A stretch of 36,196 nt of DNA from a virus. Below are positions 975 through 31,673 of the stretch, piece by piece. Where the stretch lies: positions 1 through 36,196 of the IMG/VR virus record IMGVR_UViG_3300008113_000723. One strand, given 5' to 3'. The notes beneath the pieces were generated by a model, which did not search any database, had not been told where the DNA came from, and saw only the letters and a program-made list of their open reading frames with translations. Made by a program: the position numbers and the translations under genes. Every line of letters starts with the position of its first letter. Position 1 is the stretch's first letter.

Positions 975-1650
975 TTGGTTTCTCCTTAAATTCATAATCT
1001 TTAAACACTGCGCCTTTGCTGGCATCGCCGCGCCAACACTCTTTGACCCAGCCGCGCTTGCCGGACTTATAAGTGCGCCAATGACCTCTTGCTTGATGCC
1101 TGCGTGGGCTTGCGTGTGTACCGCCGCGAGATTCTGACTGATGCTTGGGCGGCTCAATCGTCACTGTGTGCCAGTCGTACGTGGGCAACTTGCCTTCTTT
1201 TATTTTGCGGCGATTTGTGAATGTGTCTTTGGCTGTTGGCACATATGCTTCAATCTTCATGTCAAGCGACGCATAAAACATAGCCAAAATCCCGCACATC
1301 ATTGACTGGTCTTTTGGGTCAATAGGCTTGTCTACGGCTCCCGTCTTTGGCTCACCATTGTGCTCGGCAACAAGGAACGACCCAAGGGATTTGTATCCCG
1401 TCGGCTTCATAATCCAACCAGTCACAATGGTTGCTGTTGGCTCTGCCAGCACTGACAACATGAAGTCACCCTGCGCTGTCTTTCCACACAACATCATGTT
1501 TTTGTACGGTGCTGGATGTAACAAGTATTGTTTTGGGTCTGCTCCAATGTATTTTTTGATTGCTCCAGTCACATCAAACCACTGCATCTGAGTTGGGTCA
1601 AGATTAGCAACCGATACCATCTTGACCATTTCCCGCACCAACGGCGTCAT
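958..1650 (-). CDS. Conserved phage protein with C-terminal basic His/Arg/Trp motif, 230 aa
   Basis: The start at 1650 follows GAGGAGAAG and overlaps the stop of the preceding gene (ATGA). The N-terminal two thirds look globular and mixed alpha/beta. The C-terminal 65 residues contain a strongly basic segment with the pattern His-x-Ala-Arg-Gly-His-Trp-Arg-x-Tyr then Lys-Ser-Gly-Lys and Trp-Val (about residues 185-205). I have seen this pattern in phage and plasmid proteins of unknown role. The basic and aromatic composition suggests nucleic-acid contact, which is inference only. Confidence 0.65.
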   Translation of the reverse strand: MTPLVREMVKMVSVANLDPTQMQWFDVTGAIKKYIGADPKQYLLHPAPYKNMMLCGKTAQGDFMLSVLAEPTATIVTGWIMKPTGYKSLGSFLVAEHNGEPKTGAVDKPIDPKDQSMMCGILAMFYASLDMKIEAYVPTAKDTFTNRRKIKEGKLPTYDWHTVTIEPPKHQSESRGGTHASPRRHQARGHWRTYKSGKRGWVKECWRGDASKGAVFKDYEFKEKPNERHD

Positions 1651-1784
1651 TGCGGCTTCTCCTCTTCTGCAAAATCCATCTCTGGCGGGTGTGGGATGTC
1701 GTCATGCACGATGACGCCGTATTCATCTGCTGGCAGAAACCTGCCGCACACTACGCAGTGGTAGCCTTCTGTTTTTTCGTTCAT
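1647..1784 (-). CDS. Small cysteine-containing protein, 45 aa
   Basis: It starts at ATG 1784 with GGTGGTGAG upstream, and its TGA (1647-1649) overlaps the next ATG. It contains a Cys-Val-Val-Cys pair near residue 10 and two His residues near the middle, compatible with a minimal zinc-binding knuckle. The acidic C-terminus is short. The function is unknown. A longer frame reaching 1907 is the antisense-like extension of a neighbour and lacks a binding site. Confidence 0.55.
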   Translation of the reverse strand: MNEKTEGYHCVVCGRFLPADEYGVIVHDDIPHPPEMDFAEEEKPQ

Positions 1785-1984
1785 CTCACCACCCCCACAA
1801 ACACAGCCAGCACACCAGCACCGATGGCACCGAGCACGATGCCCAGCCACAGTGCCGCCCAGTACTTCATAGACTTGCGCCATGCGCTGGGGGCTTGGTG
1901 AATCCAAAACGCAGGGTTACGTCTGCCCACCTTGCCGGGGCTGATGCCGAAGTGTTCGAGTTCAAATTGTTGTCTTGATGTCAT
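1781..1984 (-). CDS. Membrane protein with one C-terminal helix, 67 aa
   Basis: It starts at ATG 1984 behind GGAGGAGCAA, overlapping the upstream stop (1981-1983). The first 38 residues are polar and basic. Residues about 41-66 form a Trp/Leu/Ile/Gly/Ala/Val-rich transmembrane helix that ends at the C-terminus. This is a tail-anchored inner-membrane topology. It sits between another membrane protein upstream (1981-2319) and a Cys protein downstream. The function is unknown. Confidence 0.6.
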   Translation of the reverse strand: MTSRQQFELEHFGISPGKVGRRNPAFWIHQAPSAWRKSMKYWAALWLGIVLGAIGAGVLAVFVGVVR

Positions 1985-2319
1985 TTGCTCCTCCGATCAC
2001 AGTACTTGTTGATCTCTTTGATGGCCTTCGGCTCGTCGCCATCGAACCACCATGCGGTGCAGTGCTTGTAGAGCGTCTGATCGTCCATCAGGGCGCGCTC
2101 ACGCCCCTCGACGTAGCCCTGCTCAAAGCCTTTCTGAAAGGCCGACCCCGTCAGTTCGTAACCAACTACGGCGGTAAGCACCAGCCAAATTCCGGCGACA
2201 TACATCAGGGCGGTTTTCTTGTTTGGTTTTGCATCCATCTCAACCAGCGGGCCACGCTCATCAAAGGCTTCCTCCATGGTGCGGGGGTGCTTGTAAGTCA
2301 AGGGGTCGTAATCTTTCAT
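1981..2319 (-). CDS. Single-pass membrane protein, 112 aa
   Basis: It starts at ATG 2319 behind AAGGAGCGGCC. A polar N-terminus (about 35 residues) with a Lys-Lys pair precedes a transmembrane helix at about residues 37-55. The helix is followed by an external or periplasmic acidic/Tyr-rich domain with Cys residues near positions 86 and 107. Membrane proteins at 2329-2478, 1981-2319, 1781-1984 and 529-624 make this operon unusually membrane-rich. A superinfection-exclusion or envelope role is conceivable but unproved. Confidence 0.6.
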   Translation of the reverse strand: MKDYDPLTYKHPRTMEEAFDERGPLVEMDAKPNKKTALMYVAGIWLVLTAVVGYELTGSAFQKGFEQGYVEGRERALMDDQTLYKHCTAWWFDGDEPKAIKEINKYCDRRSK

Positions 2320-2328
2320 GGCCGCTCC

Positions 2329-2478
2329 TTAAAAGAACCAGAGGTAGAAGCCGTGCAGAATCCCGATGGGGAAAAGCAACGCTCCGGCAATCAAGAAACC
2401 CCACAAGCCCTCAGAAAAACAGGTAAAAATGTGGTTCAGCCAAGCCGCAAACACCACGAGTCCAATAATCCAAGCCAT
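2329..2478 (-). CDS. Two-helix membrane protein, 49 aa
   Basis: This is the first gene of the left operon. It starts at ATG 2478 behind a strong AAAGGAGAACT site and ends with TAA at 2329-2331, ten bases before the next start. Hydrophobic stretches at about residues 2-17 and 25-48 make two membrane helices joined by a short Cys-Phe-Ser-Glu-Gly loop, so the protein is a small hairpin membrane protein. No homologue is recognised; holin-like size alone is not enough for a call. Confidence 0.6.
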   Translation of the reverse strand: MAWIIGLVVFAAWLNHIFTCFSEGLWGFLIAGALLFPIGILHGFYLWFF

Positions 2479-2506
2479 ACAGTTCTCCTTTAGTTGTTGA
2501 GTCTGT

Positions 2507-2512
2507 ATATTA
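2507..2512 (-). promoter_or_regulatory. Possible -10 box of the left operon
   Basis: On the leftward strand TAATAT lies 29 bases before the first start codon (2478). No good -35 hexamer is seen at 16-18 bases, so either an activator is needed or the true promoter is elsewhere in this gap. Confidence 0.25.
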
Positions 2513-2545
2513 CACCCCTTTGTAGCGTATCGTGATTGATTGTAA

Positions 2546-2603
2546 CTATCGAGATTTGATTTTCGATAGCATCAAACTATTCTGCCGGGTGGCAGAACTG
2601 CCA
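2546..2603. repeat. Composite control module, copy 1 (inverted repeat plus TGGCAG palindrome)
   Basis: A 24-nt inverted repeat (CTATCGA at 2546-2552, TCGATAG at 2563-2569) is followed after seven bases by CTATT, then by the 14-nt palindrome TGGCAGAACTGCCA (2590-2603). TTCTGCC at 2580-2586 can also pair with GGCAGAA at 2591-2597, giving a competing hairpin. The same arrangement recurs at 9826-9877 with 19 of 24 positions of the first element identical. Both copies sit upstream of a leftward operon, which suggests an operator for a phage regulator. A 26-codon leftward frame with an AAGGAG site (2626-2546) runs across this module and could be a leader peptide. Confidence 0.6.
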
Positions 2604-2653
2604 TGTAGAATGGTCTTGCACTTCATGGTGCATCTCCTTGAGTAAGTTGATTT

Positions 2654-2682
2654 GACCCGGCCCTTGTGTCGGGTCTTTTTTT
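2654..2682 (+). terminator. Rho-independent terminator, rightward
   Basis: GACCCG (2654-2659) pairs with CGGGTC (2670-2675) and is followed directly by seven T residues. No recognisable rightward gene lies immediately upstream, so it would end either a short transcript from the 2480-2650 gap or read-through from elsewhere. Confidence 0.75.
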
Positions 2683-2692
2683 GTCCTATACT
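2664..2692 (+). promoter_or_regulatory. Possible sigma70 promoter for the structured RNA
   Basis: TTGTGT (2664-2669) and TATACT (2687-2692) are separated by 17 bases. The -10 box matches five of six consensus positions and the -35 three of six. It overlaps the preceding terminator and would start transcription near 2699, just before the long hairpin. Confidence 0.3.
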
Positions 2693-2697
2693 GGTGG

Positions 2698-2826
2698 CGT
2701 TGTCGTCGAAAGCAACAAAGTTAGGCCGCTCATGCGAGTATCTTCTGCCTTATCCAATGCCTGTGATGGTGTATCGGATAGGGTTTCGACCAGAGGATGC
2801 TCACTTGAGCGGCCTTTTTGTTTTTC
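2698..2826 (+). ncRNA. Candidate small RNA: long bulged hairpin with T-tract tail
   Basis: Four nested helices can be read directly. They are GGCCGCTCA (2724-2732) with TGAGCGGCC (2806-2814), GAG (2736-2738) with CTC (2800-2802), ATCTTCTG (2740-2747) with CAGAGGAT (2791-2798, one G-U), and CCTTATCC (2748-2755) with GGATAGGG (2776-2783, one G-U). The outer helix is followed by TTTTTGTTTTT. This is both a very strong terminator shape and a 96-nt rod-like RNA. No protein frame fits. A small regulatory RNA, or the 5' domain of a longer RNA ending near 3190, are both possible. Confidence 0.45.
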
Positions 2827-3209
2827 GGGAATCGAGACATAAGTTTGCTCGATGCATAAGTGGGACTCAGAACCCAGCCAAGACCACGCCAACTGGACAC
2901 AGGTAGACCGCTCTGAATGGCCGCCGTAACTGTGTTGAGAGGCTACGGGGGAACCTTCCCAAGCCAAGCCGATATGAGTGAGGCGCAAGCCTGCGAGGAA
3001 CCGGCAGAAGGGCGTGTGCAAACACGGTAATCCTCGACAGTGGAGCTTTTGCAAGCGTCCGCTGGCCCCGATAAGGCCCATCCCGACCGACGGATAGACC
3101 GAGGGCGAAACCCTAAACCCATGCGTGTCGTGGGCTTAGGTGAGTTTTGCCCCTTTCAGAACCCTCCCTCCCTCCGGATAGATAGTAGTAACAACAATAG
3201 GGGCAGACC
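2827..3209 (+). other. Gene-free, hairpin-rich region; candidate large structured RNA
   Basis: No supported protein gene lies here, yet many local helices can be drawn on the rightward strand. They include ATCGAG/CTCGAT (2831-2853), TGGG/CCCA (2861-2876), ACACAG/CTGTGT (2897-2935) and GGCT..AGCC (2941-2965). Two stems are capped by GCAA tetraloops (2981-2992 and 3013-3026). Others are GGCC/GGCC (3064-3078), AGGG/CCCT (3102-3114) and CCTAA-CCCA/TGGG-TTAGG (3112-3140; it competes with the previous one). GNRA-capped stems are typical of large structured RNAs. The region leads straight into the HNH gene at 3210. I cannot assign a known RNA family; GOLLD, ROOL, HEARO and group I introns are the families to compare. 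Confidence 0.35.
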
Positions 3210-3704
3210 ATGGCAAAGAAAAAGGGCTTCCTCTCCGTATCCACCCTAGCGGCGTTCTCGAAGCGGTTTCTCGGTGTGGGCTCACGACTCGGCGCGAGTC
3301 CGTATGCACTGGCGTGTGAGGCGTTGGTCAAAGACGGCATGACTCGGCCTTCTGGTGCGACTGACAAGCAGTGGGTTTACATGAACGCGGCATACATCCG
3401 TAACGCCTCGAAGGGTAGCAAGCAAGGCCCGAAGGTTGCTCGACGGGAGTATGTAGCCACCGATGCGTTTCTGTCCTCGTATGAGTGGCGCAAGGTGCGT
3501 ATGCAAGCCCTCAAAAAATACGGGCCGAAGTGTATGTGCTGTGGCGCAACTCCCTCGACGGGGGCGGTGATGAATGTAGACCACATCAAGCCGCGCAAAC
3601 TATTCCCAAGTCTCGCTCTCGATGTAAACAATCTGCAAATCCTCTGCCATGAATGCAACCACGGCAAAGGCAACTGGGATTCGACCGACTGGCGACCCGA
3701 TTAA
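3210..3704 (+). CDS. HNH endonuclease, 164 aa
   Basis: This is a rightward gene inside an otherwise leftward arm. The C-terminal half carries a zinc-binding HNH fold: Cys108 and Cys111, Val-Asp-His at 123-125, Asn140/Asn141, and Cys146 and Cys149 followed by Asn-His-Gly-Lys. The N-terminal 85 residues are basic and probably bind DNA. The start ATG 3210 follows a run of AGGGG. The family cuts or nicks double-stranded DNA. In phages it acts either as a free-standing homing enzyme or in packaging; its isolation with its own structured leader favours the mobile, homing type. It lacks the RuvC part of IsrB/IscB proteins. Confidence 0.88.
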   Translation: MAKKKGFLSVSTLAAFSKRFLGVGSRLGASPYALACEALVKDGMTRPSGATDKQWVYMNAAYIRNASKGSKQGPKVARREYVATDAFLSSYEWRKVRMQALKKYGPKCMCCGATPSTGAVMNVDHIKPRKLFPSLALDVNNLQILCHECNHGKGNWDSTDWRPD

Positions 3705-3719
3705 TTTCTCGATGGGCAC

Positions 3720-3741
3720 AAAAAAACCACCCGCAGGTGGC
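3720..3741 (-). terminator. Terminator ending the 9724-3772 leftward block
   Basis: Read leftward, CCACC and GGTGG form a five-pair stem with a four-base loop, followed by seven T residues (3726-3720). It also sits just after the rightward HNH stop, where its other side has a weaker T-rich tail, so it may act in both directions. Copies of the CTCGATGG motif flank it on both sides (3708-3715 and 3745-3752). Confidence 0.75.
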
Positions 3742-3771
3742 TTTCTCGATGGATGTAGCAGGTCACAACCC

Positions 3772-4245
3772 TTAGTTTCTAGATTTCCTTGACGCTTTCA
3801 AAAGTTGTTTTGCTAAGAACCGTGTGAAGTGCAGGTCAATATCCTCGTCAGACAATAAGGTTTCATCGAAAACAGTTCGGTTAATCTCCATGAAATTGGA
3901 AAGTTTTTCCATATGAGTGATTGGTTTGGGCAGTCCTAGCAGTTGCACCTTTTTCTTTCTTTCAAGGTGTCTGAAAGTTATGCGCCATCCGCAATAATGA
4001 TTGAAGCAAAGAACGGGGGAAGCATATTCCCTGTGCTCATATCCGTTCACACAATCATGCACTCGACGCTTCTCATCCAAGTCGCCACCACCACAAATGT
4101 CGCACGTCTTGCCAGTGCTTCGCCTTATGTGCTCTTTGTATATGTCGTGAATTTCTTTTGCAAGCATGGCTATCTTGCGCCGCGTCTCATCGTGAACGTG
4201 CGGTCGGTCTGTTTGTGTCACAAAATCAAAAGCGTCATTCAACAT
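3772..4245 (-). CDS. Putative zinc-binding protein, HNH-like, 157 aa
   Basis: This is the last gene of the main leftward block. The start ATG 4245 follows GGGGAG and lies within the end of the upstream gene (11-base overlap). A Cys-Asp-Ile-Cys-Gly-Gly knuckle near residue 47 is followed by Arg-Arg-Val-His-Asp-Cys and later Leu-Cys-x-Asn-His-x-Cys, a spacing resembling degenerate HNH or endonuclease VII-type zinc folds. The C-terminal 60 residues are helical and basic. A nuclease role is possible but the catalytic His/Asn pattern is not clear. Confidence 0.6.
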   Translation of the reverse strand: MLNDAFDFVTQTDRPHVHDETRRKIAMLAKEIHDIYKEHIRRSTGKTCDICGGGDLDEKRRVHDCVNGYEHREYASPVLCFNHYCGWRITFRHLERKKKVQLLGLPKPITHMEKLSNFMEINRTVFDETLLSDEDIDLHFTRFLAKQLLKASRKSRN

Positions 4246-4504
4246 TGTCTTGCTCCCCGATGGGTAAACCCTTTGCTGTCAGGGCCAATGGCACAAAGCG
4301 CAAACCTGCTTTGTGGAATGCGGCGGCGTCAATCTCTAGGCGTTTGGTGTTGATGATTTGCACAGCCAGCTTTGCAACGGCTGATGCGCGGCTTGGGTCG
4401 CTGAGGTTGTTGCGTAGTAGGTCAAACTCCTCGAACAGTGCGCTACATAGTCCTGCGCTTGTTTGCTCGGTGTATTTAACTTTGGTGTCGATGTGTTGCT
4501 TCAT
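4235..4504 (-). CDS. Hypothetical helical protein, 89 aa
   Basis: It starts at ATG 4504 after AAGGAGAAC. The central part reads as two helices with a Glu-Glu-Phe-Asp-Leu-Leu-Arg segment and an Ala-Val-Ala-Lys-Leu-Ala-Val-Gln-Ile segment. This pattern is known in small phage and plasmid proteins of proteobacteria with no assigned role. Two motif copies lie 37-60 bases upstream in the end of the previous gene. Confidence 0.6.
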   Translation of the reverse strand: MKQHIDTKVKYTEQTSAGLCSALFEEFDLLRNNLSDPSRASAVAKLAVQIINTKRLEIDAAAFHKAGLRFVPLALTAKGLPIGEQDNVE

Positions 4505-4519
4505 GCTGTTCTCCTTGGT

Positions 4520-4789
4520 TTAAAAGTCTGAGGCTGTGTCCTCGATGGATGCTGACTCGATGGCGCTGAATCGGCCCGCACTCTCCATGCTACGGGCCAG
4601 TGTGGTGAGCATCACCCGCACACCGATGTGGGTTAGGCGGGCTTGCTCAATGGCGCGGCAAGCATTCGACACTGCGGCCAGTGCTTCGCTCGCCTCTTGT
4701 GCTTCAAGGTCGGCGGCTTCCATCATGTCGCTGAATGCCACGGCCTCGGCCTGTCTCTCGATGGATACCCAGTCAGGGACTTCGGTCAT
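4520..4789 (-). CDS. Hypothetical Ala/Glu-rich helical protein, 89 aa
   Basis: It starts at ATG 4789 after AAGGAGCTGAC, overlapping the NinX-like gene stop in an ATGA junction. The sequence is almost wholly helical and rich in Ala, Glu and Ser, suggesting a coiled-coil or helical bundle. Three copies of the CCATCGAG motif lie within it: one encodes Ser-Ile-Glu-Arg near residue 9 and two encode Ala-Ile-Glu and Ser-Ile-Glu in the last 15 residues. No family is recognised. Confidence 0.6.
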   Translation of the reverse strand: MTEVPDWVSIERQAEAVAFSDMMEAADLEAQEASEALAAVSNACRAIEQARLTHIGVRVMLTTLARSMESAGRFSAIESASIEDTASDF

Positions 4790-5097
4790 GTCAGCTCCTT
4801 GGGTATCTCGACCTCATCGCCGAGTTTTGATGCAACGTAGCACCGCATGGCGGCTATCAAACAGGTGTCGCCCTCACCTTGGACAAAGGTGCCGTCCTCC
4901 CAGTCGGTAATCAACGTAGCAATCCACCCGCCGTAAGTGTTGGTGCAAATGTCGATACCATCACGCTCAATGAGTGGCCCACCTTGTGCCCAGTCGGTAG
5001 AGTAAGAGTCGCAACCGTCAGGCTCAAACGTCCAGTTCTTCTCACACACCGCCACCGCCCAATCAAGTGCGGCCCCGCTCAGTTCAGATGTCTTCAT
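4786..5097 (-). CDS. ninX: NinX-like protein (DUF2591), 103 aa
   Basis: The N-terminus Met-Lys-Thr-Ser-Glu-Leu-x-Gly-x-Ala-Leu-Asp matches the DUF2591/NinX family. So do the central Ser-Thr-Asp-Trp-Ala-Gln-Gly-Gly-Pro-Leu-Ile-Glu-Arg and the C-terminal Ala-Ala-Met-Arg-Cys-Tyr-Val-Ala-Ser-Lys-x-Gly-Asp. NinX proteins occur in the ninR region of lambdoid phages and in many other phages; their molecular function is not established. The length matches the family. The start at 5097 follows GGAGAGAC and overlaps the upstream stop. Confidence 0.85.
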   Translation of the reverse strand: MKTSELSGAALDWAVAVCEKNWTFEPDGCDSYSTDWAQGGPLIERDGIDICTNTYGGWIATLITDWEDGTFVQGEGDTCLIAAMRCYVASKLGDEVEIPKELT

Positions 5098-5321
5098 GCT
5101 GTCTCTCCTTGTGGCCCGTATGAACGGGTCTCGTCAGTTGCAATGTCTTGGTCGTATGCACAGGTGCTGGCGATGGGTGAATCCATTTCCCCGCCGTCTT
5201 TCCAAACGTCCACCACCACGCCTTCATCGGTGGATAGGATGCGGATGGCAAAGCCCTTCACGGTAAACCATGCGGCCCCCTCGGTCAGTGTGTAGTCGTC
5301 GTCTTTTAATTCGTTGCTCAT
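5094..5321 (-). CDS. Hypothetical protein, 75 aa
   Basis: It starts at ATG 5321 after GAGGGCGAC, overlapping the upstream TGA (5318-5320). The sequence is beta-rich and acidic, with an Ala-Trp-Phe-Thr-Val segment followed by a Val-Val-Val-Asp-Val-Trp strand. Small proteins with such a layout commonly sit beside NinX-like genes, but I cannot name a family. The next junction with the NinX-like gene is again ATGA. Confidence 0.6.
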   Translation of the reverse strand: MSNELKDDDYTLTEGAAWFTVKGFAIRILSTDEGVVVDVWKDGGEMDSPIASTCAYDQDIATDETRSYGPQGETA

Positions 5322-5497
5322 GCTGTCGCCCTCGTTGCTTTCTCGATGGATTGTTTGATGGTCTTGAGAACTGCCCTCACTCGCTCGGGCTTGTATGTCT
5401 CGTCATGCTCTGCGTCTTCTACAAATGGGAGGGCCATGCATAGGCTGTGCAGTAGGTCGTCGGTGATGTCGTCGTGCGGCTGTTCTTTGGTTTTCAT
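5318..5497 (-). CDS. Hypothetical protein, 59 aa
   Basis: The frame starts at ATG 5497, overlapping the stop of the upstream gene (5494-5496), and ends in an ATGA junction with the next gene. It has an acidic N-terminal helix, a central Cys, and a C-terminal basic helix. A motif copy (5342-5349) encodes Ser-Ile-Glu-Lys eight residues before the end and lies 21 bases upstream of the next start. No homologue is recognised; the perfect overlaps on both sides support it. Confidence 0.6.
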   Translation of the reverse strand: MKTKEQPHDDITDDLLHSLCMALPFVEDAEHDETYKPERVRAVLKTIKQSIEKATRATA

Positions 5498-5730
5498 GTT
5501 TTCGCCTTGGGTGTGTGGTCTTCGATGGGTGTGGGCGTGTGCTTTGCGATACGTGCGTTGAATTCGTTTTCAAGTCGCGTATGCACTGCGGCCCACCACT
5601 TCGCTTGTTTCTGGGTTTTGACGTGGAACCAGCGGCCCGAATCGTCAAACACGTCGAACCCGCCAATCTTTTTAACGGGGGCAATGATGCACGCCTTGTA
5701 TTGCGTGGGCTGTGTAATTTGTGGCGTCAT
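5494..5730 (-). CDS. Hypothetical protein, 78 aa
   Basis: The start ATG 5730 uses GAGGAGAAATC as its ribosome binding site, part of which is the CCATCGAGG motif itself. A longer open frame reaching 5892 is rejected because the overlapping 51-residue gene fits that strand. The protein has a beta-strand-rich first half, then a helix with Lys-Gln-Ala-Lys-Trp-Trp-Ala-Ala. A motif copy near the C-terminus encodes Pro-Ile-Glu-Asp. The function is unknown. Confidence 0.6.
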   Translation of the reverse strand: MTPQITQPTQYKACIIAPVKKIGGFDVFDDSGRWFHVKTQKQAKWWAAVHTRLENEFNARIAKHTPTPIEDHTPKAKT

Positions 5731-5882
5731 GATTTCTCCTCGATGGATATGAGTTTGTTGTCGGGGTCTGGTTGTTGTTTGAAGTTCTCTAGCACTGCGC
5801 GTATTGCGTCCGGCTTCGATGGTGCTGTTATTTCCATTTGCAAGCGGCTTCCCTTTCTCTCGATGGTGATGATGTAGGTCAC
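5727..5882 (-). CDS. Hypothetical protein, 51 aa, GTG start
   Basis: The start is the GTG at 5880-5882, which overlaps the upstream TGA (5879-5881) in a GTGA junction; GGAGG lies 11 bases upstream. The stop at 5727-5729 overlaps the next ATG. The sequence reads as two beta-strands, a helix and a short C-terminal strand. Three motif copies fall inside: one near the N-terminus (Thr-Ile-Glu-Arg), one in another frame, and one at the C-terminus (Ser-Ile-Glu-Glu) that also supplies the next ribosome binding site. Confidence 0.55.
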   Translation of the reverse strand: MTYIITIERKGSRLQMEITAPSKPDAIRAVLENFKQQPDPDNKLISIEEKS

Positions 5883-6364
5883 TCTTCTTCATCCTCCATC
5901 ATCTCGGCGATGTTGAATCTCTCGGTGAGTTCTTCGGGCTCTTCGCCAAATTCGTATGTCTCGTCGTCGTGGAACCCATCACCTCCATCGGCAATGCCAC
6001 AAAATGCCATGCCACATTCGCAGTAATACAGTCTGTAAGTTATGTCGTCGCGGCTCTGTAATGCTTGCACTGGCGGGCTCCATGCGCTGTCGAATGAAAA
6101 CCGAATCTCCGTATCGCTATCTCGAACGGACAATGCGTCTTTGCCTCCAACATCCCATTTCGTGCCCCAGTTGGCGACGCGCCAATTCCACCAATCGGGC
6201 ATACCCTCGCTGGTGCATGGCTGTCCATTGGGCGCATACCCTTCGTAGGTTGGTTGTGGGCGCAAAGTCTCCAGCAATTCACCCTTCTCAAATGCGGCTT
6301 GCAATTTGTCGATGGTGTCTTTGTCGGCGGTGATGTAGAGGTCGTTTTGGCAATAGTTGGGCAT
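5879..6364 (-). CDS. Api92/DUF1281-like ferredoxin-fold protein, 161 aa
   Basis: The N-terminus Met-Pro-Asn-Tyr-Cys-x-Asn-x-Leu-Tyr-Ile and the central Trp-x-x-x-Asn-Trp-Gly-Thr-Lys-Trp-Asp-Val block (about residues 80-95) are hallmarks of the DUF1281/Api92 family, a ferredoxin-like fold in phages and plasmids. A Cys-Glu-Cys-Gly-Met-Ala-Phe-Cys-Gly stretch follows, and then an acidic tail. The family occurs in phage and plasmid early regions; its function is unknown. It starts at ATG 6364 behind AAGGAGAAC. Confidence 0.8.
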   Translation of the reverse strand: MPNYCQNDLYITADKDTIDKLQAAFEKGELLETLRPQPTYEGYAPNGQPCTSEGMPDWWNWRVANWGTKWDVGGKDALSVRDSDTEIRFSFDSAWSPPVQALQSRDDITYRLYYCECGMAFCGIADGGDGFHDDETYEFGEEPEELTERFNIAEMMEDEEE

Positions 6365-6374
6365 GGTGTTCTCC

Positions 6375-7106
6375 TTAGATTGAAATGAGGTATGGTCGGT
6401 CGGTCAGGTCTTCGATGCGTTTGCGCCACTTCTGAACCTGCGCCCACTCTTTGCGGATGCTGGCACTCAAGGCGGTGCAAACTGCGGGCGTGAATGTCCC
6501 GTGTGCTTTTATTTCTTTTGCCAATGTGCGAATGGCGATGCGGGCTGTTGTGATGTCATCCCGCAATCCCTCGATGGCTTGCTCGGCTTGGTCTTTCTGC
6601 CATGCCTCGCGGTTTTCCTCTGCGGTGCGCTCGGCAATGCTGTCGGCTTGGTATGCAATGCTTCGCATGGCCTCCTCCAGCGCATCGGTCTTGTCGCCTC
6701 GCTCGTCCCATGCTTCGCGGGCTGGCATTTTCTCGATGGAATCCCAGTAGAGGGCATCACAATCCGATTCTTTGTAGGTCACGCCTGCAACGATATAGGC
6801 CCACTTTCCAAGGCGCATCACTGTCACTGTGCCTCGGATGGTTTCGTCTTGGTAATCGTCTGCAAACCATCCTCGATGGTTGAGGCGGGCGCACTCGTCT
6901 GCGTGTGCAAAATGACGGATGTTGGGCGCGTCTTGGTGTGAGTCAAGCCACATATATTTTCTGTCTGGTGCAAAGCCAAAACGGGGCGCGTGTGTGCTGT
7001 TGCTTCGGTGCGCCCTCCAGTCGTGGTAATGCGTGTAGGTCGGTTGCTTCTCTTTCCACTTTGCGGCCTCGGCGCGGGCTTTGTTGAGGCGGTTCAATGC
7101 TGTCAT
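6375..7106 (-). CDS. Hypothetical protein, 243 aa, C-terminal coiled coil
   Basis: This is the largest gene of the left arm. The start ATG 7106 is preceded by AGAAAGG, part of which is a CCATCGAGAAA motif copy. The first half is rich in Tyr, His, Trp and Asp with a globular look. From about residue 145 a long Ala/Glu/Arg helix suggests a coiled coil. Three further motif copies lie within it, two encoding Ile-Glu and one in a different frame. No family is recognised. Confidence 0.65.
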   Translation of the reverse strand: MTALNRLNKARAEAAKWKEKQPTYTHYHDWRAHRSNSTHAPRFGFAPDRKYMWLDSHQDAPNIRHFAHADECARLNHRGWFADDYQDETIRGTVTVMRLGKWAYIVAGVTYKESDCDALYWDSIEKMPAREAWDERGDKTDALEEAMRSIAYQADSIAERTAEENREAWQKDQAEQAIEGLRDDITTARIAIRTLAKEIKAHGTFTPAVCTALSASIRKEWAQVQKWRKRIEDLTDRPYLISI

Positions 7107-7153
7107 GGTGCTACCTTTCTCGATGGATGATTTTTTAGTGTGCGGGCCTTTGC

Positions 7154-7282
7154 TTACGCGGCCCTGACTTCTTCGATGGCGACAATAATTTTTTTCGTTT
7201 TAAAGATGTGTTCGGCGTGGGCCTTTGCATCCTCGATGGTTTTAAATATGCGGGCGGCGCATTTGTATTTGGTCGGCCTCAT
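7154..7282 (-). CDS. Hypothetical basic protein, 42 aa
   Basis: It starts at ATG 7282 behind GAGGAGGTGC, with the start overlapping the upstream stop (7279-7281), and ends at TAA 7154-7156. The protein is basic and helical, with a Phe-Lys-Thr-Ile-Glu-Asp-Ala-Lys-Ala-His helix and a closing Ile-Ile-Val-Ala-Ile-Glu-Glu-Val strand. It holds two motif copies, one in each half. The small size and perfect coupling support a real gene of unknown role. Confidence 0.55.
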   Translation of the reverse strand: MRPTKYKCAARIFKTIEDAKAHAEHIFKTKKIIVAIEEVRAA

Positions 7283-7545
7283 GCTTGCACCTCCTCGATG
7301 GAAACCCAGTAACCCTCACGCCAAACCCGTTGGGGCGCACCTGCCTCGATTTCTGCGAGTCGTGCGCGGTCGGCGGCGCGGTAGGTTTTGCGGTATGTCT
7401 CAAGCCATTGTCGTGCGGGTCTGCTGGTGCGCCCATCGTGGCGGTGTTTAAAGTGGTGCAAAGCTAATCGGCGGGCGTTGCTGGCTTGGGCTTGCATCAC
7501 GTTAATTCCGTTTCTCAGGCATTGCAGTTCGGTGTAATAGGTCAT
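7279..7545 (-). CDS. Hypothetical Arg-rich protein, 88 aa
   Basis: It starts at ATG 7545, overlapping the previous TGA, with GAGGAG (inside a motif copy) 8 bases upstream. The middle is Arg/Ala/His-rich and helical, so nucleic-acid binding is conceivable. The C-terminus Gly-Tyr-Trp-Val-Ser-Ile-Glu-Glu-Val-Gln-Ala includes a motif copy. No family is recognised. Confidence 0.6.
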   Translation of the reverse strand: MTYYTELQCLRNGINVMQAQASNARRLALHHFKHRHDGRTSRPARQWLETYRKTYRAADRARLAEIEAGAPQRVWREGYWVSIEEVQA

Positions 7546-7841
7546 GCGCCCAACTCCTCGATGGTGTCAAGGTGAACCCACTCGGCGCGGTCGCCGTTCC
7601 ATGCCACGGGCGCGACAATTACCCGCAAGCTTTGCGCGGCTGTAAGTGCATCGGCGGGCGTGGCTTTGTCGGCGCATATGGGCATCCCTTGGGAAATAAC
7701 CCTGTATCGGCCTTCGCTGATGCTGAGATAAGCGGGCGGGGTGGCCTCCTCTTTTTCTCGGCGGGCTTCGCGCTCGTTCACTTGGCGGCGTAGTTCGTTG
7801 GCCTGTTCTTTAATGCGGGCGCGGGTTTCTTCGGTGGTCAT
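7542..7841 (-). CDS. Hypothetical protein with N-terminal coiled coil, 99 aa
   Basis: The start ATG 7841 overlaps the upstream stop and follows GGAGCGAC; the open frame continuing to 8042 is a shadow of the next gene. Residues 1-35 form a charged Arg/Glu coiled coil. The rest looks like a small alpha/beta domain ending in Leu-Asp-Thr-Ile-Glu-Glu-Leu-Gly-Ala, where a motif copy lies. The function is unknown. Confidence 0.6.
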   Translation of the reverse strand: MTTEETRARIKEQANELRRQVNEREARREKEEATPPAYLSISEGRYRVISQGMPICADKATPADALTAAQSLRVIVAPVAWNGDRAEWVHLDTIEELGA

Positions 7842-9724: not shown

Positions 9725-9775
9725 GGTGCGGCTCTCCTAGGTTGTGCCCAAGGTGGGCGGGTTGTTGATGGGTTT

Positions 9776-9804
9776 ATTATGGGGCTTGGTGTAACCTGGT
9801 GCAA
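9776..9804 (-). promoter_or_regulatory. Leftward sigma70-like promoter
   Basis: On the leftward strand TTGCAC (9804-9799) and CATAAT (9781-9776) are 17 bases apart, placing the start of transcription about 45 bases before the ATG at 9724. The -10 box matches five of six and the -35 three of six consensus bases. Confidence 0.5.
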
Positions 9805-9813
9805 TACATTGCA
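9800..9813. promoter_or_regulatory. Candidate operator TGCAATACATTGCA
   Basis: The arms TGCAAT and ATTGCA are perfect inverted repeats around AC. The site covers the -35 box of the leftward promoter, where a repressor would block polymerase. Confidence 0.4.
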
Positions 9814-9825
9814 ACATAATAATAA

Positions 9826-9877
9826 CTATCGATAATCGGTTTTTGATAGTCTGGGGCTATTGCTGGCAGTTCTGCCA
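9826..9877. repeat. Composite control module, copy 2
   Basis: CTATC (9826-9830) and GATAG (9845-9849) bound a 24-nt element like that at 2546-2569. Seven bases further lies CTATT, then the palindrome TGGCAGTTCTGCCA (9864-9877). Conservation of order, spacing and sequence in front of two different leftward operons argues for a shared regulator. Confidence 0.6.
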
Positions 9878-9917
9878 ATGGGCGCGGCTTTGTTGGTCGG
9901 TGTGGTTGCTCATTGGC

Positions 9918-9931
9918 TGGCAGTTCTGCCA
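9918..9931. repeat. TGGCAGTTCTGCCA palindrome, third copy
   Basis: It is identical to 9864-9877 and lies 54 bases further right. It is not accompanied by the CTATC/GATAG element. Confidence 0.6.
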
Positions 9932-9952
9932 CTCAAGCCCTCCAAAGCGGCT

Positions 9953-9982
9953 TTGTTGATTTGCCGCCAATGTTCCTATAAG
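9953..9982 (+). promoter_or_regulatory. Possible rightward promoter before terS
   Basis: TTGTTG (9953-9958) and TATAAG (9977-9982) are 18 bases apart. They would start a transcript about 35-40 bases before the small terminase start. Confidence 0.35.
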
Positions 9983-10025
9983 ATCAGGCAAAGCGCGGCG
10001 TAAGTTTCGCGTCAGCATTAAACGG

Positions 10026-11187: not shown

Positions 11188-12707
11188 AAGTAGACAGAAT
11201 TACTGAGCTGCTGGCAGTTCTGCCACCCGGCGACCAAGAAAAGCTCTTGAAGCAGTTGGACGAGTACAAGCAGGCGATTGAGCGGGAGAAGTGTCAGGAC
11301 TCGTTTTTGACGTTTGTGAGGAAGATGTGGCCGGGGTTTATTCATGGTCGGCACCATGCGGTATTGGCTAAGAAGTTTGAGGACGTGGCCAGCGGGAAAA
11401 TAAAGCGGCTGGCTATTTCTTTGCCTCCTCGCCACACCAAGTCTGAGTTCGGGTCTTATATGTTCCCGGCGTGGTTTCTAGGTAAATACCCTGAGAAGAA
11501 GATCATGCAGGCATCAAACACGGGTGAACTGGCTGTGGGGTTCGGACGTAAGGTCAGGAACTTGGTGATGAGTGAGCAGTATGCCGAGGTGTTTCCTGAT
11601 GTCCGGCTTCGTCAAGACTCCAAAGCGGCCGGCCGATGGGCTACCAACAAGAGTGGAGAGTACTTCGCTATCGGTGTGGGCGGTACGATGACCGGCCGGG
11701 GTGCGGATATTGCCATCATTGACGATCCGCACACAGAAGGCGAGGCTACTATGGCCGCTTTCAACCCCGAGGTTTATGACAAGGCGTATGAGTGGTACAC
11801 CTCTGGCCCTCGTCAGCGTCTCCAGCCTAACGGGGCGATCATCATCATCGCCACCCGCTGGTCTGAGCGTGATTTGATCGGCCGGGTTATCAAGGATGCA
11901 CAGGACAGAGGCAAGGTTGACGAGTGGGACGTGGTCGAACTGCCGGCAATCCTGCCTTCGGGTAGCTCTTTGTGGCCGGAATTCTGGTCGATCGAGGAAT
12001 TGAACGCGCTGAAGTCCGAACTTCCGGCGTCAAAGTGGAACGCGCAGTACCAGCAGACCCCAACTGGCGAAGAAGGTGCCATCATTAAGCGCGAATGGTG
12101 GAAGCGGTGGACAAAAGAGACCCCTCCACGGTGCGAATTCATCATCCAAGCGTGGGATACGGCCTATACCAAGGGGCAACGCAACGACTTTTCCGCTTGT
12201 ACGACGTGGGGCGTGTTCCATTTGGACGAAAACCCGAACGACGCCAACATTATTCTGCTCGACCGGTACATGGAGCGGCTGGAATTCCCTGATTTGAAGG
12301 TCAAGGCCAAGGAGCACTACGAGTTCTGGGAGCCTGATGACTGCATCATTGAAGCCAAGGCGTCTGGCCTGCCGTTGATCTTTGAGCTTCGGCAGATGGG
12401 CATACTGGTTTCCGACTTCACCCCTGTTCGTGGCACCCGGCAGCAGTCAAACGACAAGATTGCCCGTATGAACTCGGTCTCGGACATCTTCAAGTCCGGA
12501 AAAGTTTGGGCACCAGAGACGCGATGGGCGCAAGAGTTGATTGATAATACGGCTGCGTTCCCAAATGCTGCCCACGACGACGATGTCGATACGGTCATCA
12601 TGGCTCTCATGCGATTCAGGTCCGGTGGCTTCTTGCGCTTGAACACCGACTATGAGGATAATGACTATAGTTTCAACTCGCGTCGTAAGGGCGCGTACAC
12701 AGTCTAA
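11184..12707 (+). CDS. terL: Terminase large subunit, 507 aa
   Basis: This is the ATP-driven DNA packaging motor and nuclease. A Walker A-like Pro-Pro-Arg-His-Thr-Lys-Ser-Glu lies at residues 81-88. Walker B Ala-Asp-Ile-Ala-Ile-Ile-Asp-Asp lies near 174-181, and the coupling motif Ile-Ala-Thr-Arg-Trp at 222-226. The C-terminal RNase H-fold nuclease shows Asp325 in Ala-Trp-Asp-Thr-Ala, a second acidic cluster near Leu-Leu-Asp (360) and Glu390, and the closing Asp465-Asp469 cluster. Length is normal for the family. It starts at ATG 11184 within an ATGA junction. The palindrome TGGCAGTTCTGCCA lies inside codons 10-14. Confidence 0.95.
   Translation: MKVDRITELLAVLPPGDQEKLLKQLDEYKQAIEREKCQDSFLTFVRKMWPGFIHGRHHAVLAKKFEDVASGKIKRLAISLPPRHTKSEFGSYMFPAWFLGKYPEKKIMQASNTGELAVGFGRKVRNLVMSEQYAEVFPDVRLRQDSKAAGRWATNKSGEYFAIGVGGTMTGRGADIAIIDDPHTEGEATMAAFNPEVYDKAYEWYTSGPRQRLQPNGAIIIIATRWSERDLIGRVIKDAQDRGKVDEWDVVELPAILPSGSSLWPEFWSIEELNALKSELPASKWNAQYQQTPTGEEGAIIKREWWKRWTKETPPRCEFIIQAWDTAYTKGQRNDFSACTTWGVFHLDENPNDANIILLDRYMERLEFPDLKVKAKEHYEFWEPDDCIIEAKASGLPLIFELRQMGILVSDFTPVRGTRQQSNDKIARMNSVSDIFKSGKVWAPETRWAQELIDNTAAFPNAAHDDDVDTVIMALMRFRSGGFLRLNTDYEDNDYSFNSRRKGAYTV
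11212..11225. repeat. TGGCAGTTCTGCCA palindrome inside terL, fourth copy
   Basis: The exact 14-mer of 9864 and 9918 recurs within the N-terminal coding region of terL. A regulator or packaging factor that binds the upstream copies could also bind here. Confidence 0.6.
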
Positions 12708-28531: not shown

Positions 28532-29227
28532 ATGGCAATCGTTTTAGATGGAACCAGTGGGATTACATTCCCAAACGCTACTCAGCAGGTGGTGGCAGCT
28601 GCGTACTCATTAATTCGCGCCCCACAAATTTTAACGAGCGGGACCTCGTATACGACTCCATCTAATTGCACGCGCATTTATGTTGAATGTGTTGGCGGTG
28701 GTGGCGGTGGTGGGGCCAGCGGTAACTCACTTGGGGGTCTTTGTGGGGCAGGCGGCGGTGGCGGCGGGTATTCCGCTAAATTTTTTACAGTGGCACCAAG
28801 CACTTCATACGCATACGCGATTGGGGCTGGAGGTACTGGCGGGGCTACTCCGGGTTCTGGCGGCGTAGCGGGAAGCGGCGGCAACACTACATTCACGGTT
28901 GTAGGAACCACCATAACCGCGAATGGCGGGGCCGGTGGAGAAACTGGCGGCGCAGGGCCGGCGGGAACAACCGGTGGCGCTGGTGGTGGGTCATCTAACG
29001 GCGACATTAACATTGGCGGCGGTGGGGGTGCGTCTGCGCCGCCTTCGTATGTTAGCGGGGCGGGAGGCGCGAGCATGCTGGGTGGTGGCGGTAATGGTAT
29101 TTATTACAACGGCGCAGGTCCAGCAGGTAAGAACTATGGTGGTGGAGGTGCGGGAGGCGCTGGAACTACGCCGGGTGGGGGTGGTAACGGAGCACAAGGC
29201 GTGATCAGAGTTTGGGAGTACACATAA
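28532..29227 (+). CDS. Glycine-rich tail fibre or adhesin, 231 aa
   Basis: It begins with Met-Ala-Ile-Val-Leu-Asp-Gly-Thr-Ser-Gly-Ile-Thr-Phe-Pro, a common phage fibre start. Residues about 55-225 are dominated by Gly runs with small residues, as in polyglycine II-type adhesin tips (for example phage S16 gp38). It ends Gly-Val-Ile-Arg-Val-Trp-Glu-Tyr. It probably binds the host surface. It starts 10 bases after the preceding stop. Confidence 0.75.
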   Translation: MAIVLDGTSGITFPNATQQVVAAAYSLIRAPQILTSGTSYTTPSNCTRIYVECVGGGGGGGASGNSLGGLCGAGGGGGGYSAKFFTVAPSTSYAYAIGAGGTGGATPGSGGVAGSGGNTTFTVVGTTITANGGAGGETGGAGPAGTTGGAGGGSSNGDINIGGGGGASAPPSYVSGAGGASMLGGGGNGIYYNGAGPAGKNYGGGGAGGAGTTPGGGGNGAQGVIRVWEYT

Positions 29228-29550
29228 TGAAAGCAGCGCTCGTAAACTTGCAGGGCATCGTTGAGAACGTGATTCTTTGTAGCCCCGATGACGCCGTCCC
29301 CGAAGGCTTGGCGGCAGTTTTTGTAGCGGATGATTCCGCAGTTTCTGCTGGGTGGACTTATGAGGGCGGCGAGTTTTCCTCCAACCAAAGTGCTGCGCCG
29401 GAGCCGTCGTATGCAGATAAACGTCGAGCAGAGTATCCACCGATGTCCGACTACCTCGACGGCGTGGTCAAGGGCGACCAAGCGCAGATTGATGCCTACG
29501 TTGCAGCTTGCTTGGCTGTGAAGGCCAAGTATCCGAAGGAGCAAGCATGA
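29227..29550 (+). CDS. Tail fibre-associated protein, 107 aa
   Basis: The start ATG 29227 overlaps the preceding TAA. The C-terminal half has Ala-Asp-Lys-Arg-Arg-Ala-Glu-Tyr-Pro-Pro-Met-Ser-Asp-Tyr-Leu-Asp-Gly and a helix with Ala-Lys-Tyr-Pro-Lys. This pattern is typical of small proteins near fibres that may help assembly. The N-terminal half is beta-rich. The function is unknown but a fibre chaperone-like role is possible. Confidence 0.6.
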   Translation: MKAALVNLQGIVENVILCSPDDAVPEGLAAVFVADDSAVSAGWTYEGGEFSSNQSAAPEPSYADKRRAEYPPMSDYLDGVVKGDQAQIDAYVAACLAVKAKYPKEQA

Positions 29551-29852
29551 GCAAGGTAGCAATCACGGGCAACGCCTCGGGCACCGGCACGTTCACCATC
29601 GCCAGCCCAAACAGCAACACCAACCGGACGTTGAACCTGCCCGACGCAAGCGGGACAGTTCAGGTATCTGGAAATCCCATTTCAGGCACGACGGGCGCAT
29701 TTACCGGGGTGGTTTCAATTGGCGCGGGTTGGACCCTTGAGCAGTCTGGCACGGATTTGCTTTTCAAGTACAGCGGGACAAACGTGTTCAAGATCACATC
29801 TGCCGGCGCAATCGTTGCCAAAGACAACGTCACGGCTTACGGGACGGTGTAA
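29547..29852 (+). CDS. Beta-rich fibre-region protein, 101 aa
   Basis: The start overlaps the preceding stop in an ATGA junction and follows AAGGAGCAAGC. The repeated Gly-Thr-Gly-Thr-Phe-Thr-Ile, Thr-Asn-Arg-Thr-Leu-Asn-Leu-Pro-Asp-Ala-Ser-Gly-Thr-Val and Lys-Ile-Thr-Ser-Ala-Gly patterns are common at the base of tail fibres. It is probably an attachment or trimerisation piece. The stop overlaps the next start. Confidence 0.65.
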   Translation: MSKVAITGNASGTGTFTIASPNSNTNRTLNLPDASGTVQVSGNPISGTTGAFTGVVSIGAGWTLEQSGTDLLFKYSGTNVFKITSAGAIVAKDNVTAYGTV

Positions 29853-30862
29853 TGGCGCTACCGTCTTCTGGCCCCATCTCGTTATCTCAAGTCAACACGG
29901 AGCTTGGCCGATCGGCTACGGCTTCAATCAACATGAATGATGCGCAGGTCAGGGCATTGGCCGGCCAGCCATCCGGCACTGTGACAATGAACAACTTGCG
30001 GGGCAAGTCTCGGTTTATCGTTGCCTCTGGTGGTTCTGAAACGACATACGGAATATATAAGGTCCACACATTCACCGGTGCCGGAACGCTCACAATTTCT
30101 AACGCAGGCACTGCAGGTTTTAACACCATTGATTACCTCATCGTGGCTGGCGGCGGCGGTGGTGGTTTTGGCATTCAGGGCGACAACGGCTCTGGTGGCG
30201 GCGGTGGAGCGGGCGGGTCCGTTGCTAGCACGACTACACAGGGCATAGGATCGTATGCTGTTGGTGTTGGTGGTGGTGGCGCAGGAAAAGCGTCCGGTTC
30301 AAGTGGTAATGGCGGTAACGGCGGCACCTCGTCCGTTTTTGGAATCGTGCCTAGTGGCGGCGGTGGCGGTGGCGGTGGTTTTGCTGGCGGCAGCGCTGGC
30401 GGCTCTGGCGGTGGCGGTGGAACCAGCAACGGCGCAGGCCCAACTGCCGCAGTGTTGCCCGGCGGTGGAGGCACTGGCGGCCAAGGTAACAGCGGGGGCG
30501 CTGGCATTCGATCAGAAGGTAACTCTGCCCGTCAAGGTGGTGGTGGAGGCGGCGCAGGTGGTGCAGGGGCGACAGCAACATCAAGTTCAGGCAGCGGTGC
30601 TGGGGGTTCTGGCTCAAACAACGCTATTCGAACAGGCTCAAACGAAACCCGTGCAGGCGGTGGCGGCGGTGGATCAGTCATTAACGCGCATTCCCCCGGT
30701 GGTGCCGGTGGTGGTGGACGAGGTGCGTTTGGTACTGGCGGTACAGCAGGCGCTGGCAGCGTCAACACGGGTGGCGGCGGCGGTGGCGGAACATCCAACG
30801 GCCCTCAAAGCGCTGCCAGCGGAGGCTCTGGTATTGTGGTTATTAGATATAGGATTGCATGA
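29852..30862 (+). CDS. Glycine-rich tail fibre, type A module, 336 aa
   Basis: The N-terminus Pro-Ser-Ser-Gly-Pro-Ile-Ser-Leu-Ser-Gln-Val-Asn-Thr-Glu-Leu-Gly is a well-known phage fibre start. From about residue 60 a module runs to the end: Tyr-Lys-Val-His-Thr-Phe-Thr-Gly, Phe-Gly-Ile-Gln-Gly, Gly runs, and Gly-Ser-Gly-Ile-Val-Val-Ile-Arg-Tyr-Arg at the C-terminus. The same module makes up the first half of the 33196 protein. It is likely a receptor-binding tip or surface spike. Confidence 0.75.
   Translation: MALPSSGPISLSQVNTELGRSATASINMNDAQVRALAGQPSGTVTMNNLRGKSRFIVASGGSETTYGIYKVHTFTGAGTLTISNAGTAGFNTIDYLIVAGGGGGGFGIQGDNGSGGGGGAGGSVASTTTQGIGSYAVGVGGGGAGKASGSSGNGGNGGTSSVFGIVPSGGGGGGGGFAGGSAGGSGGGGGTSNGAGPTAAVLPGGGGTGGQGNSGGAGIRSEGNSARQGGGGGGAGGAGATATSSSGSGAGGSGSNNAIRTGSNETRAGGGGGGSVINAHSPGGAGGGGRGAFGTGGTAGAGSVNTGGGGGGGTSNGPQSAASGGSGIVVIRYRIA
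30031..30862 (+). repeat. Type A glycine-rich module, first copy
   Basis: The segment repeats at about 33260-34100 with closely similar wording (shared blocks are the FGIQG start, the Arg-Gln-Gly run, Asn/Asp-Ala-His-Ser-Pro-Gly-Gly and the closing Ser-Gly-Ile-Val). Many bases also match, for example near 30505 and 33745. Confidence 0.75.
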
Positions 30863-31224
30863 TGGCTCACTTTGCACAAATCGACGAACAGGGCACGGTG
30901 CTCACAGTCATCGTGGTGAACAACAGCGACATCTTGGATGAGAACGGCCAAGAGTCTGAAGCTATTGGTAAGCAGTTTTGCACAGACCTTCTCGGCGGCG
31001 ATTGGGTGCAGACCAGCTACAACGGCAACATGCGCAAACAGTACGCCTGCATTGGTGGTAGTTATGATTCGGTGAATGATGTGTTCATTGCGCCCAAGCC
31101 ATATCCGAGCTGGGTATTGGACGAGAACTTTGACTGGCAAGCGCCAGTGCCTGCGCCCGGCGATGATTATGTTTGGGACGAGGATAACCAGCAGTGGGTG
31201 CAAGTGCCCAAGGAGGAAACATAA
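30859..31224 (+). CDS. Conserved tail protein, 121 aa
   Basis: The pattern Ala-His-Phe-Ala-Gln-Ile-Asp-Glu, Val-Leu-Thr-Val-Ile-Val-Val-Asn-Asn and Trp-Val-Gln-Thr-Ser-Tyr-Asn-Gly belongs to a widespread phage family first seen in cyanophages. It continues with Arg-Lys-Gln-Tyr-Ala-Cys-Ile-Gly-Gly-Ser-Tyr and Phe-Ile-Ala-Pro-Lys-Pro-Tyr-Pro-Ser-Trp-Val-Leu-Asp-Glu. Members lie beside tail fibres; the role is unknown. It could start at 30859 or 30862, within the previous gene's last bases. Confidence 0.75.
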   Translation: MMAHFAQIDEQGTVLTVIVVNNSDILDENGQESEAIGKQFCTDLLGGDWVQTSYNGNMRKQYACIGGSYDSVNDVFIAPKPYPSWVLDENFDWQAPVPAPGDDYVWDEDNQQWVQVPKEET

Positions 31225-31673
31225 TGGCAAACGGAACACTGGCCCTAAGTCAGATGGACATGATGTCGCAAAGCGGCACAGGCGTCGTTACCATTGTCCC
31301 GCCAGCGACCAATACCGACCGGACGCTCACACTATCTGACAACAGCGGAACAATCGGTTTTGCAGGTTTGCCGCAGTCGGGGGCAACCAAGACTGGCTCG
31401 TACACATTGGCCGTCAACGACGTGGGCCAACTCATTCAAGTTGGCACTGGCGGCTCAATTACTATCCCCGACGCAACCTTTGCAACGGGAGACATTGTCT
31501 CAATCTTTAACAACACGGCTGGCAGCATCACCATCACTTGCACGATCACCACGGCCTACATCTCTGGCATTGACGCAGACGACGCAAGCGTGTCCCTGCT
31601 CACTCGCGGGGTGTGCTCGGTCTTGTTTATCAGCGGTACGGTTTGCGTCATTACTGGAAGCGTGACCACATGA
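31224..31673 (+). CDS. Fibre-region beta-rich protein, 149 aa
   Basis: The ATG 31224 overlaps the TAA of the preceding gene and follows AAGGAGGAAAC. A short N-terminus (Met-Ala-Asn-Gly-Thr) is followed by beta-rich sequence with Thr-Leu-Thr-Leu-Ser-Asp-Asn-Ser-Gly and a segment Gly-Ser-Tyr-Thr-Leu-Ala-Val-Asn-Asp-Val-Gly-Gln. The end is Val-Cys-Val-Ile-Thr-Gly. A similar block occurs near the C-terminus of the 31670 protein, so the two share a fibre domain. Confidence 0.65.
   Translation: MANGTLALSQMDMMSQSGTGVVTIVPPATNTDRTLTLSDNSGTIGFAGLPQSGATKTGSYTLAVNDVGQLIQVGTGGSITIPDATFATGDIVSIFNNTAGSITITCTITTAYISGIDADDASVSLLTRGVCSVLFISGTVCVITGSVTT

Follow-up and report, generated by a model that had tools for sequence, protein, structure and literature searches.

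Why does one seven-base word recur again and again, always in the same orientation, along the small-gene arm of an uncultured phage? The question is raised by a viral contig from IMG/VR (IMGVR_UViG_3300008113_000723), whose 36,196 bases are referred to here as the window. To the left of its structural genes, the word CCATCGA (TCGATGG on the plus strand) occurs 19 times between positions 3709 and 7564, in each case on the minus strand, from which the genes of this arm are read; the opposite strand of the same stretch holds none. This recount agrees exactly with the initial annotation of the locus, including the plus-strand spellings of the copies (15 CTCGATGG, three TTCGATGG and one GTCGATGG), and on the gene strand 15 of the 19 belong to the 8-mer CCATCGAG. 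Only three further copies lie in the remaining 32 kb, at 2039 (-), 17289 (-) and 25088 (+), and no similar density is therefore found elsewhere in the contig. The answer that we favour, and to which we give an even chance, is that CCATCGA(G) would be a start-associated sequence (SAS) of one lineage of uncultured phages, recognised at the RNA level by a putative binding partner.

The number of copies is well above what composition or codon use would provide. Dinucleotide shuffles of the whole window gave 4.2 copies counting both strands, with a maximum of nine. Under a third-order Markov model of the arm, 4.9 copies of CCATCGA are expected against the 19 seen (z 6.4), and CCATCGAG is the most over-represented 8-mer of the arm, with 15 occurrences against 1.5 (z 11.2). 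An expectation of 0.24 per strand, as put forward initially, overstated the contrast, although the excess itself stands. When the codons of the 13 arm genes were shuffled synonymously, the mean was 2.8 copies against the 16 coding copies present, a number reached in none of 5000 shuffles; in the arm of the related phage L090, described below, nine coding copies compare with 1.6. A literature search for the 8-mer returned no match.

Gene starts and a diverged relative

Six copies in the window lie within 25 nucleotides (nt) of a start, as measured on gene calls made in this analysis. Those at 7558-7564 and 7295-7301 are both 12 nt upstream of an ATG (at 7545 and 7282) and run into GGAG and GGAGG, respectively, the former also forming the codons for a C-terminal IE in the upstream gene. 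The noncoding copy at 7120-7126 precedes the ATG at 7106, which opens the gene for a protein of 243 amino acids (aa), by 13 nt, and the copy at 5740-5746, followed by GGAG, precedes the ATG at 5730 by 9 nt. Two more stand at 21 nt (5343-5349, ATG 5321) and 24 nt (5522-5528, ATG 5497), the latter of which may be a protein-level feature. These distances, and the noncoding position of three copies (3709, 3746 and 7120), are as initially annotated. A variant with one mismatch, CCATCGG-GGAG (4246-4263), is found 11 nt upstream of the ATG at 4245. All of these, like every copy located below, are on the minus strand.

The use of the DUF1281_C-like protein (5879-6364; its score is below the Pfam cut-off) as a query led to two contigs, L089 and L090, which represent one phage, since they are identical over 8.1 kb. 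Their left end shares 74% DNA identity with the terminase region of the window, and the arm of L090 encodes homologues of the 243-aa protein (46%), the DUF1281-like protein (55%), a 78-aa protein (78%) and a protein of 97-99 aa (61%). The motif is present here also: this arm holds CCATCGA 14 times on the coding strand, and the opposite strand has no copy. Of its 11 gene starts, seven are preceded by a copy at no more than 15 nt, and in six of these the distance is exactly 12 nt. The usual form is CCATCGAAGGAG-N7-ATG, in which AGGAG follows directly after CCATCGA, and several copies lie in noncoding spacers directly past the preceding stop codon (TAAyCCATCGAAGGAG..ATG). The likeness of the L090 start copies extends over about 22 nt (CCATCGAAGGAGTCACAGC-ATG, CCATCGAAGGAGAAACATC-ATG). 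The L090 homologue of the 243-aa gene also has the copy ahead of it, at a distance of 12 nt. Downstream of the conserved 97-99-aa gene, both phages keep the element at the gene junction, with a different gene following in each. Judged from this comparison, the motif is real and heritable. When viral contigs were scanned for CCATCGAAGGAG-N7-ATG, the matches listed comprised a single one per contig, as by chance, except in L089.

Placing copies uniformly, a null that ignores composition, leads to an expectation of 1.5 copies 0-25 nt before a start in the window, where 6 of 19 are found (P 0.003), and of 1.1 in L089/L090, where 7 of 14 are found (P 5e-5). With up to one mismatch allowed, the distance profile of both phages places eight copies at 12 nt, and no other distance has more than one. 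The motif is absent from the 29 structural-gene starts and from the 11 other leftward starts outside 3.7-7.6 kb. CCATCGA occupies positions -19 to -13 relative to the ATG, directly 5' of the Shine-Dalgarno (SD) sequence. The SD-like part that follows the core is variable (GGAG, AGGAG, AAAGG, GGAAA, AAGAG); CCATCGA is constant, and persists even beside a weak SD. The motif had been thought to form part of the ribosome-binding site (RBS), but its conserved part lies upstream of the SD.

The wider terminase relatives lack clusters of CCATCGA, and in the same arm they carry stereotyped starts that are spelled differently. Spellings found across the related arms include AGGACTGACCTATG, GGAGCCCTC and AGGAGAAACCACC-ATG. 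The 8.7-kb arm of L014, whose terminase is 76% identical, holds no CCATCGA and has its own AGGAGAAACCACC-ATG starts. Three loci with related arm genes (L297, L298 and L097) use GGAGCCCTC, and the gene starts of L030 read AGGAGCC. Starts of the form AGGACTGACC-TATG occur in seven loci (L064, L074, L078, L079, L082, L083 and L085), where AGGACTGA is present in 4 to 11 copies on one strand.

Candidate roles of the element

How might such a start-associated sequence act? Written CCATCGA-[A]GGAG-ATG, and with CCATCGA 12 nt from the ATG, the element would serve in the mRNA of the leftward non-structural operon as a signal for translation initiation or co-regulation. An RNA-binding protein or small RNA, encoded by the phage or by its host, would settle on the core and raise or block ribosome loading on all genes together. 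Copies would spread and turn over with gene shuffling, partly along with cassettes, leaving solitary copies in and after genes, the sides of the terminator included. The 3' tail of 16S rRNA is not known to contain a match to CCATCGA, or to pair with it beyond the SD; we therefore infer a separate reader, be it protein or RNA. The fixed distance to the ATG and the place 5' of the SD fit a translation initiation region better than a transcriptional roadblock or a codon effect. Spacing alone is no proof that CCATCGA is read, because a fixed SD-to-ATG distance fixes anything welded to the SD, and its retention at weak SDs is the better argument.

Several observations weigh against this proposal. 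Copies more than 40 nt from any start are in excess beyond codon use (10 versus 1.4 in the window and five versus 1.0 in L090), and two noncoding copies flank the operon terminator (3705-3752), so that a pure translation-start role is insufficient. The same excess, taken with the codon-shuffling result, places the signal in the nucleotide sequence and not only in the protein. Predicted RNA folds leave the motif hardly more unpaired than 7-mers chosen at random. The DUF1281-like gene carries the element in L090 only and the 78-aa gene in the window only, and the motif comparison rests on two phages. The solitary copies may be relics of gene shuffling, or the reader may act on the whole mRNA. 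A tentative variant, which we hold with considerable doubt, is that CCAUCGAG would be an address label of the sense-strand mRNA, placed at starts, within genes and at the terminator, by which one phage-encoded factor, protein or small RNA, switches or processes the whole operon, the label being lineage-specific.

It is also conceivable, if somewhat unlikely, that nothing reads the heptamer, and that a successful ribosome-binding cassette was carried along when genes recombined or were duplicated, a functionless 5' CCATCGA hitch-hiking with it. Such passive spread would agree with the 22-nt likeness of the L090 start copies and with the differently spelled starts of other arms, and solitary copies could be its relics. 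The seven nucleotides are, however, more constant than the SD that they would accompany, and they persist between phages whose arm proteins are 46-78% identical; the intragenic excess, with its non-homologous flanks, is left unaccounted for. That last excess would suit a DNA-level site resembling the stoperators of cluster A phages, an oriented, asymmetric repressor site that blocks transcription of the operon and lies close to starts owing to short gene junctions. The single orientation relative to transcription, and the positions at gene junctions, within genes and on both sides of the terminator, point the same way. Furthermore, in five loci of the sister lineage (L064, L078, L079, L082 and L085) one copy of AGGACTGACC ends the 17-nt spacer of a sigma-70-like promoter (TTGACA/TTGCAC and a TATAAT-like box), shortly past a T-run; that the repeat also sits in a control region of the DNA is what argues most strongly for keeping the DNA reading in view. 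A roadblock would not, however, predict a sharp 12-nt spacing to the ATG. The likely operon promoter region (9750-9990) holds no copy, and both this region and 2540-2605 carry other, symmetric repeats suited to a repressor. The copies are concentrated in 3.9 kb, with three elsewhere in a fragment that represents about half of the genome, and a scan of the proteins of this incomplete genome found no cognate repressor. We consider the stoperator-like site unlikely.

Still less can be said for a site of mRNA processing or decay, in which a sequence-specific endoribonuclease or a protecting factor would recognise CCAUCGAG in the polycistronic mRNA. Although its restriction to the sense strand, at junctions, in genes and beside the terminator, would be explained, and the intragenic and terminator copies with it, cleavage needs no fixed distance to an ATG, no nuclease candidate was identified and no conserved structure surrounds the motif, and we regard this role as very improbable. 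The initial annotation had also read a protein signal into the shared frame of the coding copies, and the whole pattern might be an artefact of protein sequence or codon use if Ile-Glu/Asp dipeptides, written as CC ATC GA(G), were favoured here. The count of 14 of 16 in one frame is correct, and such dipeptides exceed expectation in the arm (22 versus 13.3). This frame is the usual one, with 196 of 306 occurrences of CCATCGA (64%) in long open reading frames (ORFs) of other fetched phage loci falling in it, and the sharing of a frame is ordinary codon bias. The peptide at the 5522 copy, IEDHTPK, recurs in L295 and appears as REDHTPK in L090, and a TIEE C-terminus is found in L297 too, written there in other codons. 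As the sole cause, this explanation is refuted by the synonymous shuffling and by noncoding copies in both phages, and the 12-nt start spacing speaks against it as well; it may cover one to three copies, and as a general account it is extremely unlikely.

Genomic setting and the remaining copies

The window is probably a fragment of a larger genome, about half of which is missing, since the longest contigs with a related terminase reach about 60-70 kb. From about 10 kb onwards its genes point rightward and include the small and large terminase subunits, the portal and the major head protein. Left of these, a divergent operon of small genes runs leftward from about 9.7 to 3.8 kb and ends at an intrinsic terminator, GCCACC-TGCG-GGTGG-T7 (3719-3742, minus strand), with a noncoding CCATCGA directly before it (3746-3752) and another directly past its T-run (3709-3715). 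Within 3772-7841, our gene calls comprise 13 small genes on the minus strand (3772-4245, 4235-4504, 4520-4789, the NinX-like 4786-5097, 5094-5321, 5318-5497, 5494-5730, 5727-5882, 5879-6364, 6375-7106, 7154-7282, 7279-7545 and 7542-7841). An HNH endonuclease gene (3210-3704, plus strand) faces the operon. Megablast of 25 kb of the window against named phages gave no DNA-level match. The portal protein is at most 45% identical to those of named phages, with distant kin in Pelagibacter, Planktothrix, Roseobacter and Caulobacter phages. Among named phages the 243-aa protein had a single weak match (27%) and the 78-aa protein none, and none of the plasmids and bacterial genomes searched carries the 243-aa protein. 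A scan of the window for known RNA families, tRNA and tmRNA found none.

The other copies are intragenic or lie farther from starts. The copy at 4542-4548, 37 nt upstream of the ATG at 4504, is the second of a tandem pair and is 8 nt from its intragenic partner at 4557-4563; a further one (4758-4764) is close to the start of gene 4520-4789. Gene 7154-7282 contains two, at 7233-7239 and, close to its 3' end, at 7173-7179. The copy at 5816-5822 is in a Pro-Ser frame. That at 5860-5866 (ITIERKG) is present in the L090 homologue as ATIERKG, and another intragenic copy, SIEKA/TIEKA, is likewise common to both phages. The L090 homologues are without the copies at 6309-6315, 6571-6577, 6733-6739 and 6873-6879, the last of which is in a His-Arg frame. 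We also considered whether copies mark hidden nested genes, and found no convincing start 9-16 nt from the intragenic ones; RNA hairpins at the motif differed little from those at random 7-mers and were rejected as an explanation.

Repeats of other kinds were noted in the window and its relatives. The probable control regions of two leftward operons (2545-2603 and 9825-9931) share ACTATCGA...GATAG, and a 14-bp palindrome, TGGCAGWWCTGCCA, stands at 2590, 9864 and 9918, with a fourth occurrence in the terminase gene (11212-11225). The repeats and palindromes shared by the two control regions look like candidate operators of a phage regulator. At the terminase/arm border of L090 (about 480-700) a different palindrome, of the ACTGAA...TTCAGT type, occurs three times, and a further palindrome, ACTGAAGAATTTCAGT, lies near the right end; operator spelling may thus differ between relatives. 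Positions 2700-3200 of the window, before the HNH gene, have no convincing genes and contain a GGCCGCTC...GAGCGGCC stem followed by a T-run, with no Rfam match. The word GGCGGTGG occurs 43 times on the plus strand and once on the minus strand of the window, 39 times within 28694-34765, and is probably Gly-Gly-rich coding sequence. L295 has a row of paralogous genes of WDAARDAA-type repeats (1138-4440) and nine TAACGTTA palindromes in the contig, and in L093 the words TAGAGCAG and TTGAGGTA (read on the minus strand) each occur twelve times on one strand within 12 kb, another candidate oriented repeat.

Comparison with known systems

Many copies resemble an ordinary SD in that they run into GGAG or AGGAG at a normal distance from the ATG; CCATCGA itself differs from one in lacking, as far as we know, a match to the 16S tail and in being conserved at weak SDs. 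With the stoperators of cluster A phages such as L5 (PMC6550527, PMC9283540) the element has in common that it is asymmetric, repeated, oriented with transcription, partly located at gene borders and spelled in a lineage-specific way. Cluster A genomes can have as many as about 30 stoperators, spread over both arms and present also at promoters (PMC6550527), whereas CCATCGA is restricted to one arm, keeps a fixed spacing to the ATG and is absent from the likely promoter.

The closest likeness is to the SAS of cluster K mycobacteriophages and of Microbacterium cluster EF phages (PMC3203893, PMC7302621), and on this point the initial annotation has held up better than in its shared-frame protein signal and its simple RBS role. 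Both are short asymmetric repeats of 10-20 copies in almost one orientation, found only in the non-structural arm, before the starts of unrelated genes, and more conserved than an RBS needs; the fixed ATG distance and the recurrence in a diverged relative support the parallel. The cluster K and EF sequences (GGGATAGGAGCCC, GGGAAAGGACCCC) span the SD and typically end 3-7 nt before the start (PMC3203893, PMC7302621). CCATCGA is unrelated to them in sequence: it does not match the cluster K consensus GGGATAGGAGCCC, does not overlap the SD core, and ends 12 nt before the start, 5' of a variable SD. ORFs contain only six of the 125 cluster K motifs (PMC12699233) but most of the CCATCGA copies, and the near-start share is 6 of 19 in the window and 7 of 14 in L090 compared with virtually all in the SAS definition. 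No inverted-repeat extension (ESAS) was noticed, in the course of work that included no systematic search for one. The SAS has been known in mycobacteriophages since 2011, and the question of its role becomes approachable by comparison with an independent example from phages of another, unrelated group, one with a different sequence, a core 5' of the SD at a fixed distance and an intragenic excess. This example also hints that labels of gene starts across a whole operon may be widespread among phages. Since the behaviour is common to both and the sequence is not, we file CCATCGA as SAS-like: it works like an SAS, but outside the cluster K family.

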